Shown here one piece after another: positions 4,031 to 54,286 of a DNA stretch of 64,000 nucleotides. Location: NCBI GenBank assembly GCA_021890755.1, contig JAKKUQ010000002.1, forward strand, positions 1 through 64,000, read 5' to 3'. The notes below the pieces were generated by a model, which saw only the letters and a program-made list of their open reading frames with translations, had not been told where the DNA came from and did no database searches. Position numbers and translations under genes: made by a program. Source of the stretch: Thermosediminibacteraceae bacterium (GTDB lineage Bacteria > Bacillota > Thermosediminibacteria > Thermosediminibacterales > Thermosediminibacteraceae). How positions within the stretch are numbered: position 1 is the first letter of the stretch; each line of letters opens with the position of its first letter.

Positions 4031-5097
4031 CTTGATTTACAAAAATTTTCCAAAAAAGCAATTTTCTCAGCTTCTTTTTGTTTAAGATCGATTCTTCTAA
4101 TCACTTCGTCCATAGGTATAGATTTACCTTTCCATGATAATACAAATTCTTTAATCTTATTTAAACTTTTTTTTACATTATCTTCTTCATTTGGTATTTG
4201 AAGAACAAAATCACAACCTCTAAGATCAGGATCATCATAAGCTATTATAACCGGTAATCCAAAAGCTAGATATTCCCGAACTTTAAGAGGCGAAGCTTGA
4301 TTCATACTTTTACGATGAAGCGCCAGAGTCCCTACACCTACATCAATTTTCTGGTAGAGTGCTAATAATTTTTCATGGTCGAGAAATTTATGAACCTTTA
4401 TATTATTAGGTATAGAACCTCCCAGTTCAGGACCCACTAAATGAAACTCAAATTCGGGAAGCAAAGAGGCCATGACAATTATCTTATCCACTCCATGCCA
4501 CGGCATACCAGGAGTTCCGACAAATATAAGTTGAGGCCTCTCATTATGAGGTACAGGTCTAGGGATAACTTTAGAAGTATCATATCCGTTTGTAGCCACG
4601 AATATAGGTTTGCTAATACACTCTAAAATATTACTTAGTTCTTCCGTAACTACAATTAAAGCTTTAGCTTTCCTGTAAATTCTGTTTCGTGTTAAACGGT
4701 TGAAGAATTTACGCACTCCTTTGAGTTCACCTTCATCATAAGTATTTATCTCTATTACAAATGGAGCGACGCTCAAAACTTTCTCCAACCCCGGATACCA
4801 CATTCCTTGGCGGTAATAAATGATATCGGGCTGATACTCTATAAGAGCTTTTTTTAAAGAACTAGCTGAGAGTATTTTGTTCATATAAACTTGAGTACGC
4901 CTTGGGAAGAAACTAGCAAGTCGAAAAGTAAACATCTCAATTTTGGGTCCGGAATTCAAAGTAAATCTTTCTGAAGTAACTAAAAAAATTCTAGCCTCAT
5001 GACCAAGTGAAATCCATGCTTCTACCTGAGAAACGATTTTGTTCAATACTCCTCTAAAGATAGAAGGAATTATTTCAGCAATATATGCAATACGCAT
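4027..5097 (-). CDS. Glycosyltransferase family 4
   Basis: A 356-aa GT-B glycosyltransferase. N-terminal MRIAYIAEIIPSIFRGVLNK matches the acceptor-side start of GT4 enzymes. The middle has IFVGTPGMPWHGVDK (about 190-205), and the C-terminal donor half has SPLKVREYLAFGLPVIIAYD with a less canonical form of the E-x7-E motif. The ATG is preceded by GGAGGC with good spacing. It is the first gene of a three-gene group (this, the polymerase, GT2) behind its own likely promoter. Its role is addition of one sugar of the repeat unit; which one is not visible. Confidence 0.85.
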   Translation of the reverse strand: MRIAYIAEIIPSIFRGVLNKIVSQVEAWISLGHEARIFLVTSERFTLNSGPKIEMFTFRLASFFPRRTQVYMNKILSASSLKKALIEYQPDIIYYRQGMWYPGLEKVLSVAPFVIEINTYDEGELKGVRKFFNRLTRNRIYRKAKALIVVTEELSNILECISKPIFVATNGYDTSKVIPRPVPHNERPQLIFVGTPGMPWHGVDKIIVMASLLPEFEFHLVGPELGGSIPNNIKVHKFLDHEKLLALYQKIDVGVGTLALHRKSMNQASPLKVREYLAFGLPVIIAYDDPDLRGCDFVLQIPNEEDNVKKSLNKIKEFVLSWKGKSIPMDEVIRRIDLKQKEAEKIAFLENFCKSR

Positions 5098-5220
5098 TCT
5101 TCAGCCTCCACTTTTTTCAAGACTTCTTAATTTGTCTTTTCATATCTAGATACCAACTTAATTGATACAAATTTTAGACTTTTAAAATATAACGAATAAT
5201 TAACAATTTAATATACTATG

Positions 5221-5249
5221 ATTGTAGCATAAATTTTCCCTATGGTAAA
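5221..5249 (-). promoter_or_regulatory. Probable sigma-A promoter for the GT4-Wzy-GT2 group
   Basis: On the minus strand TTTACC (5249-5244) and TACAAT (5226-5221) are separated by 17 bases, with TG just before the -10 giving an extended -10. It lies in the AT-rich 255-base gap behind the epimerase gene and about 125 bases ahead of the GT4 start. It would let the variable glycosyltransferase part be transcribed separately from the pathway genes. Confidence 0.5.
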
Positions 5250-5352
5250 ACAGCAAAAACTACAGCAAATTAGGTGTTACAATTGATTGCAAAAGCACCA
5301 TTTTTCATGCATAAAGTTTTCTCCCAAATTTTTTTATACCTGTTAATATGTA

Positions 5353-6423
5353 TCATTTTATAAGACCTTTTATTATATTGACTATTTTTTCCCCAGCTTT
5401 CCCTTCACCGTAAACATTATTTTTTGGTTTTCTGTTCTCCTCCGACACCATACTTTGATAACATGAAAACAAGTTATCAGGAGATGTTACCTTATTCCAT
5501 CCAAGTTCAATAAGTTCTTTCCAGCCGGTATCTGGCATGAGGACGATAGCCCTTTTCCCTGAAAAATAAGCCTCTTTTTGCAGACCTCCGCTATCCGTAA
5601 TCACCATAAGGCTATTTTCCAAAAGGCCCATCATTTTTAGATAATCTAGAGGCTCAGTAACAATAACATTCCTTAATAAAGATTCCAAACCAAATTCAGC
5701 GATCCTTTTTTGAGTTCGAGGATGTACCGGGAATATTATTTTAATAAGATCTGCAATATACGAAATGCCTTCCAAAATACCTTTAAGTTTATTCGGGTCA
5801 TCAGTATTAAAATCTCGATGGATCGTACAAACAATATATTCATTTTCTTTAAGATCGTATTTCCGTAAAATTGAATAATCAAAGTATGGTTTCATCTTCA
5901 AGAAAAGATCGTACATTATATCGCCAACAAAATATACCTCTTTTTTTATATTCTCTTTTTCAAGGTTTTCTACAGCTAGCTCCGAGGGGCAAAAAAGATA
6001 CGTTGACACATGGTCTGTTAATACTCTATTTATTTCTTCGGGCATGTCTTTTGGCTCCTGTCTTATGCCTGCTTCTACATGAGCTATCGGAATTTTTAAT
6101 TTTGCTCCTACTAAAGCACCGGCTACCGTCGTGTTTGTGTCCCCGTAAACGACAATAATATCGGGTTTTTCTTTCACAACGACTTCCTCAAAAGCTATCA
6201 TAATTTTACCTGTTACTACCGCATGGCTTCCTGAACCTACATTCAAGTTATAATCCGGTTCTCGCATTTTTAAAACCTTAAAGAAAACATCAGACATATT
6301 GTAATCATAATGCTGCCCTGAATGAACAACTATTTCTTGGATTCCATTTTCTTTTAATTTCTCTTGTAAAATTGCTTCCTTAATAAACTGGGGCCTTGCA
6401 CCTATAAGCGAAAGAACTTTCAT
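5353..6423 (-). CDS. wbpI: Non-hydrolysing UDP-sugar 2-epimerase, WbpI-like
   Basis: A 356-aa member of the WecB/WbpI epimerase family. It starts with KVLSLIGARPQFIK, then HSGQHYDYNMSD, VYGDTNTT near residue 95, HVEAGIRQEPKDMPEEINR (about 117-135), and DSGGLQKEAYF near 277. The PKDMPEEINR form and the length (about 355) fit WbpI, which converts UDP-GlcNAc3NAcA to UDP-ManNAc3NAcA, better than canonical WecB. It directly follows wbpD-, wbpB-, wbpA- and wbpE-like genes, so the full five-step pathway is present. The ATG has GAGGA seven bases upstream. A plain UDP-GlcNAc 2-epimerase is the main alternative. Confidence 0.85.
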   Translation of the reverse strand: MKVLSLIGARPQFIKEAILQEKLKENGIQEIVVHSGQHYDYNMSDVFFKVLKMREPDYNLNVGSGSHAVVTGKIMIAFEEVVVKEKPDIIVVYGDTNTTVAGALVGAKLKIPIAHVEAGIRQEPKDMPEEINRVLTDHVSTYLFCPSELAVENLEKENIKKEVYFVGDIMYDLFLKMKPYFDYSILRKYDLKENEYIVCTIHRDFNTDDPNKLKGILEGISYIADLIKIIFPVHPRTQKRIAEFGLESLLRNVIVTEPLDYLKMMGLLENSLMVITDSGGLQKEAYFSGKRAIVLMPDTGWKELIELGWNKVTSPDNLFSCYQSMVSEENRKPKNNVYGEGKAGEKIVNIIKGLIK

Positions 6424-6466
6424 ATATATTCCTCGTTTCCCTCAACAGTTTATAATAATAAATTTT

Positions 6467-7171
6467 TTATTTCTCCCTTGCCGGATTTCCGACCACCACT
6501 TTCCCCTTTTCCACATCCTTCGTAACCACCGCTCCTGCTCCTACAAAGCCGTCTTCATGGATGGTTTTCCCGGGCAATATGGTGGCGTTCACTCCTATCC
6601 TGCCGCCTTTTTTTACGGTAACTCCTTTCATTTTTTTGAACCGGTCGGGGTCTTTTCCGGCGGAATTATCGTTGGATGTAGCAACGCAGGGAGCAATGAA
6701 AACATCGTCTTCTAGTTCGGAGTAAGCGGTAATGTAAGCATCAGTTTCTATTTTGCAGCGGGAACCTATCTTGCAGTGGTTTTCTATAGCAGCTCCCCTT
6801 CCTATTATGGTCATATCACCTATCGTCACGTCTTCCCTTACAGTAGCAAGGTCTGCAATGAGGCATTTTTCGCCTATAATACACCCTGCGTAAATTACTG
6901 CCGATGTTCCTATGATACATTCGTTTCCTATCCTGCACGGGGGCTTTTCACTTTTATCTTTGAAAATGCTGTTGGCTGCTCGCATTGGCTGCTTCCCTAT
7001 TACAGCATTGTCATCTATCCGAACGTTTTCACCTATTATACTTCCTTTATATATCGTAACATTGTTGCCTATCACAGTTCCTTTGCCAATAACTACATCG
7101 TCTTCTATCACCGTGAACCTTCCTATTTTTACATCAGGCCCTACCTTTGCCTTTTCAGATACATAATTCAT
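6467..7171 (-). CDS. wbpD: UDP-sugar N-acetyltransferase with left-handed beta-helix, WbpD-like
   Basis: A 234-aa hexapeptide-repeat acyltransferase. Nearly the whole chain consists of [LIV]-G-x4 turns ([49 protein letters not shown]), ending in the usual [23 protein letters not shown]. The family forms trimers that use acetyl-CoA. In the WbpA-E pathway WbpD acetylates the 3-amino group of UDP-GlcNAc3NA. Its place between the oxidoreductase and epimerase genes supports that substrate. The ATG follows AAGG and overlaps nothing. An O-acetyltransferase role is possible but fits the context less well. Confidence 0.85.
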
Positions 7172-7175
7172 ACGT

Positions 7176-8243
7176 TTACCTTGTTCCTCCTAACATATCT
7201 TTTGTAGAAAAGTCACCTAATGGCATATCTATAGGCCTTTTTGTAAGAGCTGACTTATATATCGAAAGTACAAGTTCAACCGCCCTTTTCCCCTCTCGGG
7301 CATTTATCAGTGGCTGCCGCTCGTTCAACACGGCATCTGCCATATCTTCATAAAGCAGAGTATGAAGGTTTGGCGGGATTTCTGCAGACTCATAGAACGT
7401 CTTTCCTTTGATATTCCAAACCTCTACTTTATTCAAAGTTTTTCCACCTATCAGGACCGTACCTTTTTCACCAAATATCCCGAGGGTTTCCTCTAAATTT
7501 TCCGGGTATACGCACACGCTGGCTTCTACTATACCTAAAGCGCCATTTTTAAATCTTATAACTGCAGCTCCTGCATCTTCCGCTTCGATTTTTTTCAGGA
7601 AAGTGCCGGTTTCGGCATAGACCCTTTCAGCTTCTCCCATTAGCCAAAGCAAAAGGTCTACCACATGGATGGCCTGGTTCATGAACGCTCCACCGTCGTA
7701 TTCCCACGTTCCCCTCCACGGTGACGACGAATAGTAATCATCACTACGGTTCCAGCGCATGGATGCCGAGGCATGGACCAGCTTACCGAAAGCGCCCGAA
7801 TCTATCTCTTCTTTTAGCTTCATAATGTGGGGCATGAATCTCAATTGATGACATACTGCCACTTTCAATCTCTTTTCTTCAGATTTTTCTATTATCTCAT
7901 CGGCCTCTGTTGTTGAAAGAGACATGGGTTTTTCCAAAATTACATGTTTTCCAGCATCAAGGGCATCTAGGGCTATTTTCGGCCTTATTCCGCTTATAGT
8001 TGCGACGGTGACAATGTGTATTTCGGGATCCTCCAATAATCTTCTATAGTCGTTGTATTTTTTGATACTATCCTGGCAAGTACCGCCTGCTTTTATATAT
8101 TCCTCTAGTGCTATGTCCATCTTTTCGGAAACGGTATCACAAAGAGCCGCAAGCTCCATTTTGTCGGAATTTTCCATAACAGCTCTGAGATGCTTAGGAA
8201 TGATGCTGCCGCACCCTATGATGCCTATTTTGAGTTTTTCCAT
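7176..8243 (-). CDS. wbpB: Gfo/Idh/MocA-family NAD-dependent sugar dehydrogenase, WbpB-like
   Basis: A 355-aa oxidoreductase. The N-terminal Rossmann motif is [14 protein letters not shown], followed by the conserved EKPMSLS (about residue 100) and [25 protein letters not shown], the catalytic His region of the family. In this context it should oxidise C3 of UDP-GlcNAcA to the 3-keto sugar for transamination. I chose the ATG at 8243 because TAGGTG stands six bases before it; a GTG three codons upstream is the alternative. It follows the dehydrogenase gene with almost no gap. Confidence 0.87.
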
Positions 8244-8252
8244 TTTGTTCAC

Positions 8253-9581
8253 CTACAACTTGTATATTTTGGGATCTTTAATATTTCTCAAAGCATTTCG
8301 AGTATCGAGGATTAAGGGGGAATATCTATATATAAGTTCGTAGTCAAATTTTTCGTGGTCAGTAGTTATCATAACAAGATCGCTGCTTTGAAGAGTTGTG
8401 TTATTTATCTCTACAGACTTATAGTGTTTCCCATTATATACGAATTCCAGAACGTAAGGGTCGCTGTAAGCAATTTTAGCACCATTTTTCTCGAGAAGGC
8501 CAATTATCTTGAGAACAGGGCTTTCTCTTATATCATCTATATCCTTTTTGTATGTTACCCCCAGGATTAACACTTTTGCTCCATTCAATGGTTTTCCATA
8601 GGAATTCAGGATTTCCGTAGCCCTTTCGACTGTATATGATGGCATGTAGTCATTTATTTCTCCAGCCAGTTCTATGAACCTTGTGTGGTAGTCGTACTCC
8701 CTGGCTTTCCAAACGAGATAATACGGATCTACAGGAATGCAGTGGCCTCCTATGCCGGGGCCTGGATAAAATGCCATAAAACCATAAGGTTTTGTCTTTG
8801 CTGCTTCGATTACTTCCCACACGTCTATGCCCATGCGGCGGCAAAGGATGGCCATTTCGTTAGCAAGAGCTATGTTTACGTGGCGGAATACATTTTCGTA
8901 GATTTTTTCCATCTCCGCAACTTTGGGGCTTGAAACTTCAAAAACTTCCCCTTCAAGCACATTTCTGTAAAGTTCTGCAGCTACTTTCGTGCAAGTTGGA
9001 GTTACCCCTCCTACTACCTTCGGTGTGTTTTTAGTCTTATACACTTTGTTTCCAGGGTCCACCCTTTCGGGGGAATATGCTAAGAAAAAGTCCTCGCCGC
9101 ATTTCAGGCCTGTTGATTCCAGGATAGGTTTAAGCACTTCTTCCGTCGTACCCGGGTAGGTGGTGCTTTCTAGTACCACCAGCATCCCTTTGTGAAGCCT
9201 TTCAGCTATTTCCTTGGTGGTATTTTCCACATAGGTAAGGTCTGGCTGTTTGTATTTATCTATGGGCGTGGGGACGCATATTGCCACTGCATCAAGCTCT
9301 CCTATTTCATCATAGTTGGAGGAAGCTCTTAATTTTCCGGATTCCACTACATCTTTTAACTCTCCGTCCAGCACATCACCTATGTAGTTTATGCCGCTGT
9401 TTACCAATTCCACTTTTTTCTGCTGTATGTCAAAGCCCGTAACTGAATAGCCGGCTTTGGCTTTCTCTACCGCCAGTGGAAGGCCTACGTAGCCAAGGCC
9501 TATTACGCCAATTTTTGCGGTCTTTGCCTTTATCTTTTCTATAAGCTCAGCAGCCGTTTGATTTTCTAGCGCGTTCATCAT
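8253..9581 (-). CDS. wbpA: UDP-N-acetylglucosamine 6-dehydrogenase, WbpA-like
   Basis: A UDP-glucose/GDP-mannose dehydrogenase family enzyme of about 440 aa. It has the N-terminal Rossmann motif GVIGLGYVGLPLAVEKA, the STTYPGTTEEV and YSPERVDPGN blocks, FRHVNIALANEMA, and the catalytic Cys in PGPGIGGHCIPVDPYYLVWKA (about residues 255-275). This is the class that oxidises UDP-GlcNAc to UDP-GlcNAcA in two NAD-dependent steps. Its gene follows the aminotransferase gene directly. The sequence begins GTG AGC ATG ATG; I place the start at the first ATG because GGGTG precedes it, but any of the three could be used. Confidence 0.9.
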   Translation of the reverse strand: MMNALENQTAAELIEKIKAKTAKIGVIGLGYVGLPLAVEKAKAGYSVTGFDIQQKKVELVNSGINYIGDVLDGELKDVVESGKLRASSNYDEIGELDAVAICVPTPIDKYKQPDLTYVENTTKEIAERLHKGMLVVLESTTYPGTTEEVLKPILESTGLKCGEDFFLAYSPERVDPGNKVYKTKNTPKVVGGVTPTCTKVAAELYRNVLEGEVFEVSSPKVAEMEKIYENVFRHVNIALANEMAILCRRMGIDVWEVIEAAKTKPYGFMAFYPGPGIGGHCIPVDPYYLVWKAREYDYHTRFIELAGEINDYMPSYTVERATEILNSYGKPLNGAKVLILGVTYKKDIDDIRESPVLKIIGLLEKNGAKIAYSDPYVLEFVYNGKHYKSVEINNTTLQSSDLVMITTDHEKFDYELIYRYSPLILDTRNALRNIKDPKIYKL

Positions 9582-51397: not shown

Positions 51398-51494
51398 AGT
51401 AGCGGGAGATTAAAGCTTTTACTTTGGAGAAAAGCAACATCGTGGGGTAGGAAGCAAGATAGAAAAGTAACACCAAATGGAAGGAGAAACGCCC

Positions 51495-52370
51495 ATGAAG
51501 CCTGCGGGCATTATTCTTAAAGATGATATTATCTCTGCATTGCGCCATTATTTTGCTTCAAGAGAAGACGTGCCGTTTGCGTACCTATTTGGCTCTTACT
51601 CCCGAGGAAAGCAAAAAGAAGATAGCGATATAGACATAGCCGTTTATTTATCCGGCATCAGCGAAGATAAATTTTTCGAGTGTAAATTGGATTTTAAAAC
51701 CGAACTGGAAGAGATTTTTAAAAAACCCGTTGATGTGGTTATTATGAACAGCGCTCCACCCCTTTTAAACCACGAAATCTTTAAAGACGGTATTCTCATT
51801 AAAAATGCCGATCCTTCGTTTCTCTCAGAGTTTCGAATGAAAAACTTTTACTTTTACCTGGATCAAATGTATATAATCAATACCTATTTGGAATCAACCA
51901 AAGAGAGGATAAAAGAAAATTCCATTATTAAAGAAAGAAGGCAAACTTATATGGTTAGGAGAGAAATAATTTCGAAAAAGGTAAATCTTATAAGATACCA
52001 TTTGGAGAGAATCACGTCAAAAAGCAATATTTCGCTGGAGGAGTTTTTGAGCAACGACGATGTAAAGGACATAATTTGCCACAATCTGTTCATCGTACTT
52101 CAATACGTCATCGATATCTGCAACCACATTATTTCCGACGAAGGCATGGAGGAGCCTCTGTATTTATCTGATATGGCGGATATTTTAGCAAAAGAAAAAG
52201 TAATAAGGAAAGAACTCGTAAAGCCTTTAAAGGGTATGATAGGTTTGAGAAACTTGCTTGCTCACCAGTATGGAGATTTAGATTTTAAGGAGATATATAA
52301 TATCGTGAAAAACGACTTAAAAGACGTAAATGCTTTTCTGGAGGATATAATAGGCTATTCAAAATTATGA
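51495..52370 (+). CDS. Single-chain MNT nucleotidyltransferase plus HepT/HEPN protein
   Basis: A 291-aa protein that joins two parts normally encoded by separate toxin-antitoxin genes. Residues about 15-105 are a minimal nucleotidyltransferase with YLFGSYSRGKQKEDSDIDIAVY (GSx10DxD intact, partly quoted). Residues about 110-291 are all helical and end in a HEPN RNase motif RNLLAHQY (R-x4-H-x-Y). In MntA-HepT pairs the antitoxin adenylylates the Tyr of that motif. Both active sites look intact. The ATG at 51495 has AAGGAG; an earlier ATG lacks it. It is divergent from dinB. A housekeeping nucleotidyltransferase is the alternative. Confidence 0.85.
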   Translation: MKPAGIILKDDIISALRHYFASREDVPFAYLFGSYSRGKQKEDSDIDIAVYLSGISEDKFFECKLDFKTELEEIFKKPVDVVIMNSAPPLLNHEIFKDGILIKNADPSFLSEFRMKNFYFYLDQMYIINTYLESTKERIKENSIIKERRQTYMVRREIISKKVNLIRYHLERITSKSNISLEEFLSNDDVKDIICHNLFIVLQYVIDICNHIISDEGMEEPLYLSDMADILAKEKVIRKELVKPLKGMIGLRNLLAHQYGDLDFKEIYNIVKNDLKDVNAFLEDIIGYSKL

Positions 52371-52678: not shown

Positions 52679-52730
52679 GGTGCCAGCTTTTATTGGCAAG
52701 GCAGAAATAAAACATTTGGAGGTCATAAAG

Positions 52731-54236
52731 TTGAACGATTTATTGGGAGTTCTCATATCAATCCTTTTCGTCTTAGCTGTCATAATACTTTCGGAAGTTT
52801 TGCAAAGGGCCGGAAAAGACCCGGAATTCACGAGGAAACTGGTGCACATCGGGGTATCCCACTGGTGGCCTTTGGCCATGTTTCTCATCGATGACATCAG
52901 ATTCGCTCTCATACCCCCTGCCTTATTCGTGGCGGTAAACTATTATTCCCACAAGAAAAATTTCTTCAAGGGCATGGAAAGAAAGGAGACGGGCTCAGAC
53001 CTGGGAACGGTGTATTTCCCCGTAGCGCTTATAGTCCTCATCCTCCTGACATGGGATGGTGGGCTTTTGGGGAGCGGTTTTGAGTATATAGGCCTTGCGG
53101 GAGTCATGGCCATGGGTTACGGCGATGGCTTTGCGGCAATTGTGGGCCAAAAGTGGGGGAAATTGAAGTACAGGATCTTCAAAAACGAAAAGAGCCTTGA
53201 AGGCTCCACAGCGATGCTTACTTTTTCTTTTTCATCTATCGCAGTTGTCCTGTGCCTTTTTGCAGGATTTAACCCCAGCGTCCTAAGAGTAAGCTTTTTG
53301 ACAGCACTCCTTGCCACGATTTTGGAAGCTCTTTCGCCTTCCGGCACGGACAACCTCACCGTCCCGGTTGTTACTGCACTTGCTTCTTACTATTTCTTGC
53401 ACATTCTCAAAAATTCGGACCTTTTCATATTCATTTACATGGCCGGGATAGGCTTTTTGCTTAGTTTCATCATTGCATACGTCGCCTATATAAAGAATTC
53501 CCTTACCCTTGACGGCTCTGTGGGCGCAACATTCCTGGGCACAATAATGTACGCCACTTCGGGGATCTTCGGCTCATTTTTGATGGTGCTCTTCTTTCTT
53601 TCCTCCAGCGCCCTTTCCCATTTTAAAAAGAGCGCAAAAAGCAGTGTAGCCCGCCATTTCGACAAAACAGGGTGCAGGGATGTTTTGCAGGTGCTGGCCA
53701 ACGGGGGCGTTGGACTTATCTATTCGGTGCTTTATTACATTACAAAAAATCCGTCGTATCTTGTGCTGCTTGCCATATCCTTTGCTGCCGCCAACGCCGA
53801 TACCTGGGCTACGGAGCTCGGGGTCCTGAGCAAAGCCCGCCCAATTTCGCTCAGAACCTTTAAGAGAGTGGAAAAAGGCACCTCCGGTGCGGTAAGCCTA
53901 TTGGGGACCTTAGCCGCATTAATGGGAGCCTTACTCATCGGCATATCCACTGCCGCCGGATTTAAACTGATGGGTTTCGGGAACATGGCCTTTACCCACT
54001 TTCAGAGCCTATTTATAGTGACCCTGGGGGGATTCTTAGGGTCGCTCATTGATTCGCTCCTTGGCGCAACCCTTCAGGGCGTATACTATTCGGAAGAACT
54101 CGAAGGCGAAACCGAAAAAAGGTTCTTCAACGGCAAACCAAACCGGCTCGTCCGGGGACTGAGTTTTGTAAACAACGACCTGGTCAACTTCCTCAGCATC
54201 GGCATTTCCAGCGTCCTGTTTGCCGGAATTGTGTAA
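52731..54236 (+). CDS. Fusion of a phytol/dolichol-kinase-like domain with a DUF92 (VTE6-like) domain
   Basis: A roughly 501-aa polytopic membrane protein. The N-terminal half (about 1-225) looks like the VTE5/SEC59-type CTP-dependent kinase family (FTRKLVHIGVSHWWPLAM, GYGDGFAAIVGQKWGK, EKSLEGSTAMLTFSF). The C-terminal half (about 245-500) is DUF92/TMEM19-like (GSVGATFLGTIMYA, ANADTWATELGVLSK, KGTSGAVSLLGTLAA, DSLLGATLQG). In plants VTE5 and VTE6 phosphorylate phytol and phytyl-phosphate in turn, so one chain could make a prenyl diphosphate. The TTG start is supported by GGAGG seven bases upstream. Substrate unknown. Confidence 0.85.
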   Translation: MNDLLGVLISILFVLAVIILSEVLQRAGKDPEFTRKLVHIGVSHWWPLAMFLIDDIRFALIPPALFVAVNYYSHKKNFFKGMERKETGSDLGTVYFPVALIVLILLTWDGGLLGSGFEYIGLAGVMAMGYGDGFAAIVGQKWGKLKYRIFKNEKSLEGSTAMLTFSFSSIAVVLCLFAGFNPSVLRVSFLTALLATILEALSPSGTDNLTVPVVTALASYYFLHILKNSDLFIFIYMAGIGFLLSFIIAYVAYIKNSLTLDGSVGATFLGTIMYATSGIFGSFLMVLFFLSSSALSHFKKSAKSSVARHFDKTGCRDVLQVLANGGVGLIYSVLYYITKNPSYLVLLAISFAAANADTWATELGVLSKARPISLRTFKRVEKGTSGAVSLLGTLAALMGALLIGISTAAGFKLMGFGNMAFTHFQSLFIVTLGGFLGSLIDSLLGATLQGVYYSEELEGETEKRFFNGKPNRLVRGLSFVNNDLVNFLSIGISSVLFAGIV

Positions 54237-54260: not shown

Positions 54261-54286
54261 ACCCCCTCCTTTTCGGGGGTTTTTTA
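54261..54286 (+). terminator. Intrinsic terminator after the DUF92 fusion gene
   Basis: ACCCCC and GGGGGT stem with a loop of TCCTTTTC, followed by TTTTTAAC. Confidence 0.85.

Follow-up and report, generated by a model that had tools for sequence, protein, structure and literature searches.

The phytol kinase (VTE5) and the phytyl-phosphate kinase (VTE6) of plants and cyanobacteria represent the same two protein families as the gene described here and act in succession; in plants they are separate proteins of photosynthetic hosts, whereas the window (the whole stretch of 64,000 nucleotides that was analyzed, from a Thermosediminibacteraceae bacterium) encodes both in one polypeptide, and its host is presumably a non-photosynthetic anaerobe. 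VTE6, of the DUF92 family, has been described as phytyl-phosphate kinase (PMC9782597, PMC10849223), and a phytol-phosphate role was proposed for COG1836 in 2011 (PMC3223725). PfPolK of Plasmodium, a CTP-dependent farnesol/geranylgeraniol kinase that is active in yeast extracts, has a single kinase domain, and no diphosphate was detected in its assay, whereas the window protein has two domains; a charged clamp of R29, K30 and H33 was proposed for PfPolK from a model (PMC10849223).

For archaea, Makarova et al. (2015; PMC5898192) describe PF01940 proteins that carry a SEC59-like domain at the N-terminus, with conserved aspartates in both domains, and note that archaeal DUF92 genes neighbour uppS, a context from which an isoprenoid kinase step was predicted. 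An example is Mbar_A3310 of Methanosarcina barkeri (SEC59-like plus arCOG02245/PF01940), which has the same domain order and pairing as the window fusion and, like it, is predicted for a kinase step of isoprenoid synthesis; it is archaeal and is likened here by description, and the passage on it describes no carotenoid-operon link. With these archaeal fusions published, the SEC59-DUF92 architecture is already known and the bacterial fusion is a new member of it. A biochemical assay of a bacterial fusion was not found in our literature search.

Gene and domain architecture

The features of the gene are summarized in Table 1. The ORF is intact over 501 codons, the start residue is the same in homologues, and a genome search found one DUF92 gene and one N-domain gene in the host, both in the fusion. 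The preliminary description had proposed that two domains are joined in this ORF, which was confirmed, and the protein is conserved over its full length. The join is no artefact, because the full fusion is kept at 62-100% identity within the order and recurs in other phyla.

Table 1. Features of the fusion gene and its surroundings in the window
Feature	Position	Strand	Details and basis
GGAGG ribosome-binding site	52718..52722 (within a base or two)	+	Sequence reading
Predicted prenol kinase (SEC59/VTE5-like) fused to DUF92/VTE6-like protein, 501 aa	52731..54236	+	TTG start at 52731, stop at 54234-54236; full-length homologues
N-half, SEC59/VTE5-like domain	52731..53417	+	Residues 1-229; motif counts, alignment, AlphaFold2 model
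N-half motifs			RKLVH 35-39; GDGFAAIVG 131-139; KSLEG 154-158; EALSPSGTDNLTVP 199-212
C-half, DUF92 (PF01940; VTE6/TMEM19 family)	53460..54206	+	Residues 244-492; profile match; invariant D357, D441
Intrinsic-terminator-like hairpin, then T run	54263..54279	+	Sequence

The C-half had been likened to DUF92 (VTE6/TMEM19), and the domain search bears this out, with a PF01940 match (E 3.7e-66; 223.5 bits vs a cut-off of 27.5) that spans positions 2-249 of the 251 of the profile. The hypothetical-equivalog cut-off of TIGR00297 was missed (117.7 vs 205.85 bits); the C-half is thus a DUF92 domain outside the TIGR00297 subgroup, and its substrate may differ from that of the subgroup. The charged residues D357, E362 and D441 are invariant over several phyla. 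A comparison of the N-half with the C-half by hhalign gave a probability of just 7%, so an internal duplication is unsupported at the sequence level.

The N-half had no Pfam match up to E=10 and no NCBIfam match in the profile search, so its assignment was based on other tests (motifs, profile comparison). No relative was found in PDB sequence searches with the protein, the full alignment or the N-half alignment, and no annotated VTE5 in the plasmid search. Near- or fully invariant over 35 fusions are R35, H39, G92, D132, A135, G139, K154, G158, E199, D207, N208 and P212, of which D132 and D207 are invariant in these fusions and also in 42 N-domains. The prenol-kinase motifs RKxxH, GDxxA, KSLEG and E...DNLTVP are all present, in keeping with the VTE5/SEC59 resemblance of the N-half noted in the preliminary description. 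Compared with 29 CdsA controls, which came from related genomes and were picked by the CdsA signature itself, R[KRM]xx[HI] was found in 42/42 N-halves (controls, 1/29), GDxxA in 42/42 (0/29) and DN-x-P in 41/42 (0/29). R35, K36 and H39 show the same Arg-Lys-x-x-His spacing as the PfPolK clamp (PMC10849223). For the SEC59-like domain, two conserved aspartates are presumed to be catalytic in the archaeal study (PMC5898192), and we infer that D132 and D207 are the two that are meant. Motifs and profile comparison place the N-half in the CTP-transferase superfamily, with marks of the SEC59/VTE5 type.

Distribution and gene neighbourhoods

Besides the host, 13 genomes from two families of the order encode the full fusion (62-100% identity). 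The MAG 'Bacillota bacterium isolate ZC4RG34' has an identical protein (100%) and Thermosediminibacter litoriperuensis an orthologue at 84%, which puts the host close to Thermosediminibacter and Fervidicola. Identity is 30-55% in groups outside the order, and this conservation is far beyond chance. The gene is absent from two genomes of the same family (G001 and G005; 99% complete), so its role is dispensable. A GTDB genome scan gave at least 80 loci, and fusions among the matches listed were from Clostridia, Spirochaetota, Mesoaciditoga/Athalassotoga, Marinimicrobia, Ignavibacteria/Bacteroidota, Chlorobi (Thermochlorobacter), a Planctomycetota MAG, and Uabimicrobium. The pairing is an old one that occurs widely among anaerobic bacteria. 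The preliminary description had noted the fusion in an anaerobic Firmicute, to which it is not special: it occurs in several phyla and, as reported in 2015, in archaea (PMC5898192).

Both domains lie in one frame, N then C, in the window protein and 41 other fused rows of the tree set, and at 13 further loci they are encoded by two adjacent genes that keep this order and share a strand, overlapping or up to 31 bp apart. An N-domain tree of 68 rows (quick method) requires six changes between fused and split genes, of which at least three to four are forced by strong branches; fusion or fission hence happened repeatedly. At three split loci (L043:3421-4989, L136:1462-2973, L137:1393-2976) the domains are in frame with exactly one stop codon between them (gap, 3 bp), and these look like a fusion broken by a single stop. 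Stand-alone N-domain proteins of other Firmicutes (L147-L158), with no adjoining DUF92 gene, form one clade in the tree and may act on a different substrate. In a genome of the same class (G023; L017:1495-2595), all that is left is a truncated N-domain fragment of 147 aa that lacks DUF92, and the ORF after it is transporter-like and unrelated; the fragment is probably a decayed copy.

N-domain and DUF92 were found together in 22 of 300 Firmicute genomes vs 4.9 expected (p 2e-13; p 4e-10 with the window's order reduced to one). This co-occurrence, combined with fusion or adjacency, is as expected for two enzymes that serve a single pathway.

Squalene/phytoene synthases (SQS_PSY) use C15/C20 diphosphates, the products expected of an enzyme that salvages farnesol or geranylgeraniol. 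Over 37 fused or split loci, with up to two genes considered on each side, SQS_PSY was the commonest neighbour family, followed by Caroten_synth. The pair adjoins SQS_PSY in five lineages (L037/L039, L040/L047, L043, G218 and G299), in two of which it is part of a crtI-crtB-Caroten_synth-[fusion] operon. The gene orders are crtI - crtB - Caroten_synth - fusion in Gracilinema/Treponema; crtI - crtB - Caroten_synth - fusion - GT2 (CruG/HpnB-like) - CrtO-type acyltransferase in Mesoaciditoga/Athalassotoga; SQS_PSY - N - C in a Bacillota MAG; crtI | crtB - N - C in G218; and SQS_PSY - fusion in G299. In the N-domain tree, the three Firmicute cases fall into one clade and the spirochaete and Mesoaciditoga cases into another, so the independent associations number two to five. 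Across the 300 Firmicute genomes, pair and SQS_PSY occur together in just two, within about 100 bp in both, which is at chance level (2 vs 0.9 expected, p 0.22); only their adjacency is striking, not their co-occurrence at the genome level. Neither SQS_PSY nor UbiA co-occurrence over genomes explains the distribution of the pair. Where the pair does lie in a carotenoid context, that context favours C15/C20 compounds as its putative substrates, and in other phyla it provides a concrete substrate prediction.

The bacterial phylum spread, the alternation of fused and split states, and the carotenoid-operon context appear to be new, as none was found reported in our literature search, where absence is no proof. 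In spirochaetes and Mesoaciditoga/Athalassotoga, the fusion is a member of the carotenoid operon (L037:2824-7476, L039, L040:2773-8728, L047), and the operons with GT2 and CrtO-type acyltransferase suggest glycosylated acyl carotenoids in these groups.

Predicted function and alternatives

The fusion is, in our judgement, rather likely to be a bifunctional prenol/prenyl-phosphate kinase that makes prenyl diphosphates, and the two-step kinase idea of the preliminary description is supported by the domain families, the motifs, the fused or adjacent genes, and their co-occurrence. The protein would be an integral-membrane kinase with two activities: with CTP (or another NTP) as phosphate donor, the N-half would phosphorylate a free isoprenoid alcohol, the C-half would phosphorylate the resulting monophosphate once more, and the prenyl diphosphate would return into isoprenoid synthesis. 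Short-chain alcohols of the farnesol/geranylgeraniol class would be the likeliest substrates, since the pair adjoins squalene/phytoene synthase in other lineages. With both steps predicted for one gene, a heterologous host would allow a direct test of the pathway, and the fusion could serve as a compact tool for isoprenoid-alcohol utilisation.

DGK1, SEC59 and VTE5 are members of a single superfamily, and the motifs scored here do not separate their substrates, which leaves some room for an N-half that phosphorylates diacylglycerol with CTP (DGK1 type) or acts on another lipid alcohol, with a lipid-phosphate kinase of unknown type as C-half; we regard this as very unlikely, as the commonest neighbour families, led by SQS_PSY and Caroten_synth, include no phospholipid gene. 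An N-half that is a phosphatidate cytidylyltransferase (CdsA), with the fusion in phospholipid synthesis, is hardly credible. CdsA (PF01148; 4q2e) is a distant superfamily relative: hhalign aligned the N-half to CdsA profiles with 94.5% probability over 113 columns, and CdsA 4q2e was the first Foldseek match to the N-half AlphaFold2 model (mean pLDDT 92.5), but a weak one (probability 0.84, TM 0.36, E 0.16); the full-length model had no significant Foldseek match. The likeness is limited to the shared catalytic core (GD...KSxEG), and the C-terminal motif of the N-half (DNLTVP) is different. The CdsA signature, which we take to be the PS01315-type pattern SxxKRx4KD...HGGxxDRxD, occurred in 0/42 N-halves; PF01148 did not match the window protein up to E=10 and matched 3/42 N-halves weakly (best, 0.0064); and a true, full CdsA is encoded elsewhere in the host genome (2.9e-61). 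The preliminary description had set a closer kinship to CdsA and a lack of kinase residues against its reading; given the missing signature, and R[KRM]xx[HI] and GDxxA throughout, the CdsA identity is contradicted, and on these sequence features the N-half is not a CdsA.

A further question is whether both halves are active, and on which chain length. One half only might be an active kinase, the other being degenerate or regulatory/substrate-binding, with the monophosphate as product or with monophosphate from elsewhere being used. The activities are assigned from family membership, which allows for this, but invariant charged residues in both the N-half (R35, D132, E199, D207) and the C-half (D357, E362, D441) over several phyla, and adjacent N-only and C-only genes in the split lineages, make it quite improbable. 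Somewhat less improbable, though still unlikely, are long polyprenols as substrate, i.e. salvage of undecaprenol (or other C35-C60) for cell-envelope glycan carriers: SEC59 is a dolichol kinase, and the window includes a polysaccharide cluster. Archaeal DUF92 genes neighbour uppS (PMC5898192). However, glycans are carried on the monophosphate, for which a second kinase would be superfluous, and in other lineages the pair lies next to enzymes that use C15/C20 compounds. The link to nearby glycan loci that had been suggested was not borne out: the polysaccharide genes (window positions of about 0.4-25 kb) are roughly 28 kb away, the immediate neighbours of the fusion are DNA polymerase IV, an MNT/HEPN protein and an ABC exporter, and a PF01219 gene (undecaprenol/diacylglycerol kinase) is present separately in the host and in 31/32 genomes, with or without the fusion.

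For the bifunctional prenol/prenyl-phosphate kinase, the host genome offers likely sinks in polyprenyl-diphosphate synthases and a dihydroxynaphthoate prenyltransferase (menaquinone-type lipids). In the window the fusion has no isoprenoid gene beside it, and SQS_PSY had no match in the host genome; three polyprenyl-synthase and three UbiA-family matches were found, of which one UbiA gene passes the 1,4-dihydroxy-2-naphthoate polyprenyltransferase cut-off, and a quinone-type sink is hence available. We tentatively suggest, as a possible but not the favoured outcome, that anaerobic bacteria share an old and widely distributed module, an enzyme for complete salvage from alcohol to diphosphate, which feeds whichever C15/C20-using pathway its host has. 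In spirochaetes, Mesoaciditoga/Athalassotoga and some clostridia this would be squalene/carotenoid synthesis, and in the window's order quinone-type lipids.

Two other observations were made. At L174 (G000:C51:54500-64500), positions 4076-8769, genes for a UbiA/MenA-like prenyltransferase, a PplA-like FMN-binding lipoprotein and a polyprenyl-diphosphate synthase are clustered, together with an NADH-dehydrogenase-like flavoprotein with a DoxX-like tail, and the cluster resembles a flavin-based extracellular electron transfer locus. The MNT/HEPN gene beside the fusion (51477-52367, + strand) encodes a single protein composed of an MNT-type nucleotidyltransferase (Polbeta) and a HepT-like RNase domain, i.e. 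antitoxin and toxin families that are usually encoded by two genes.
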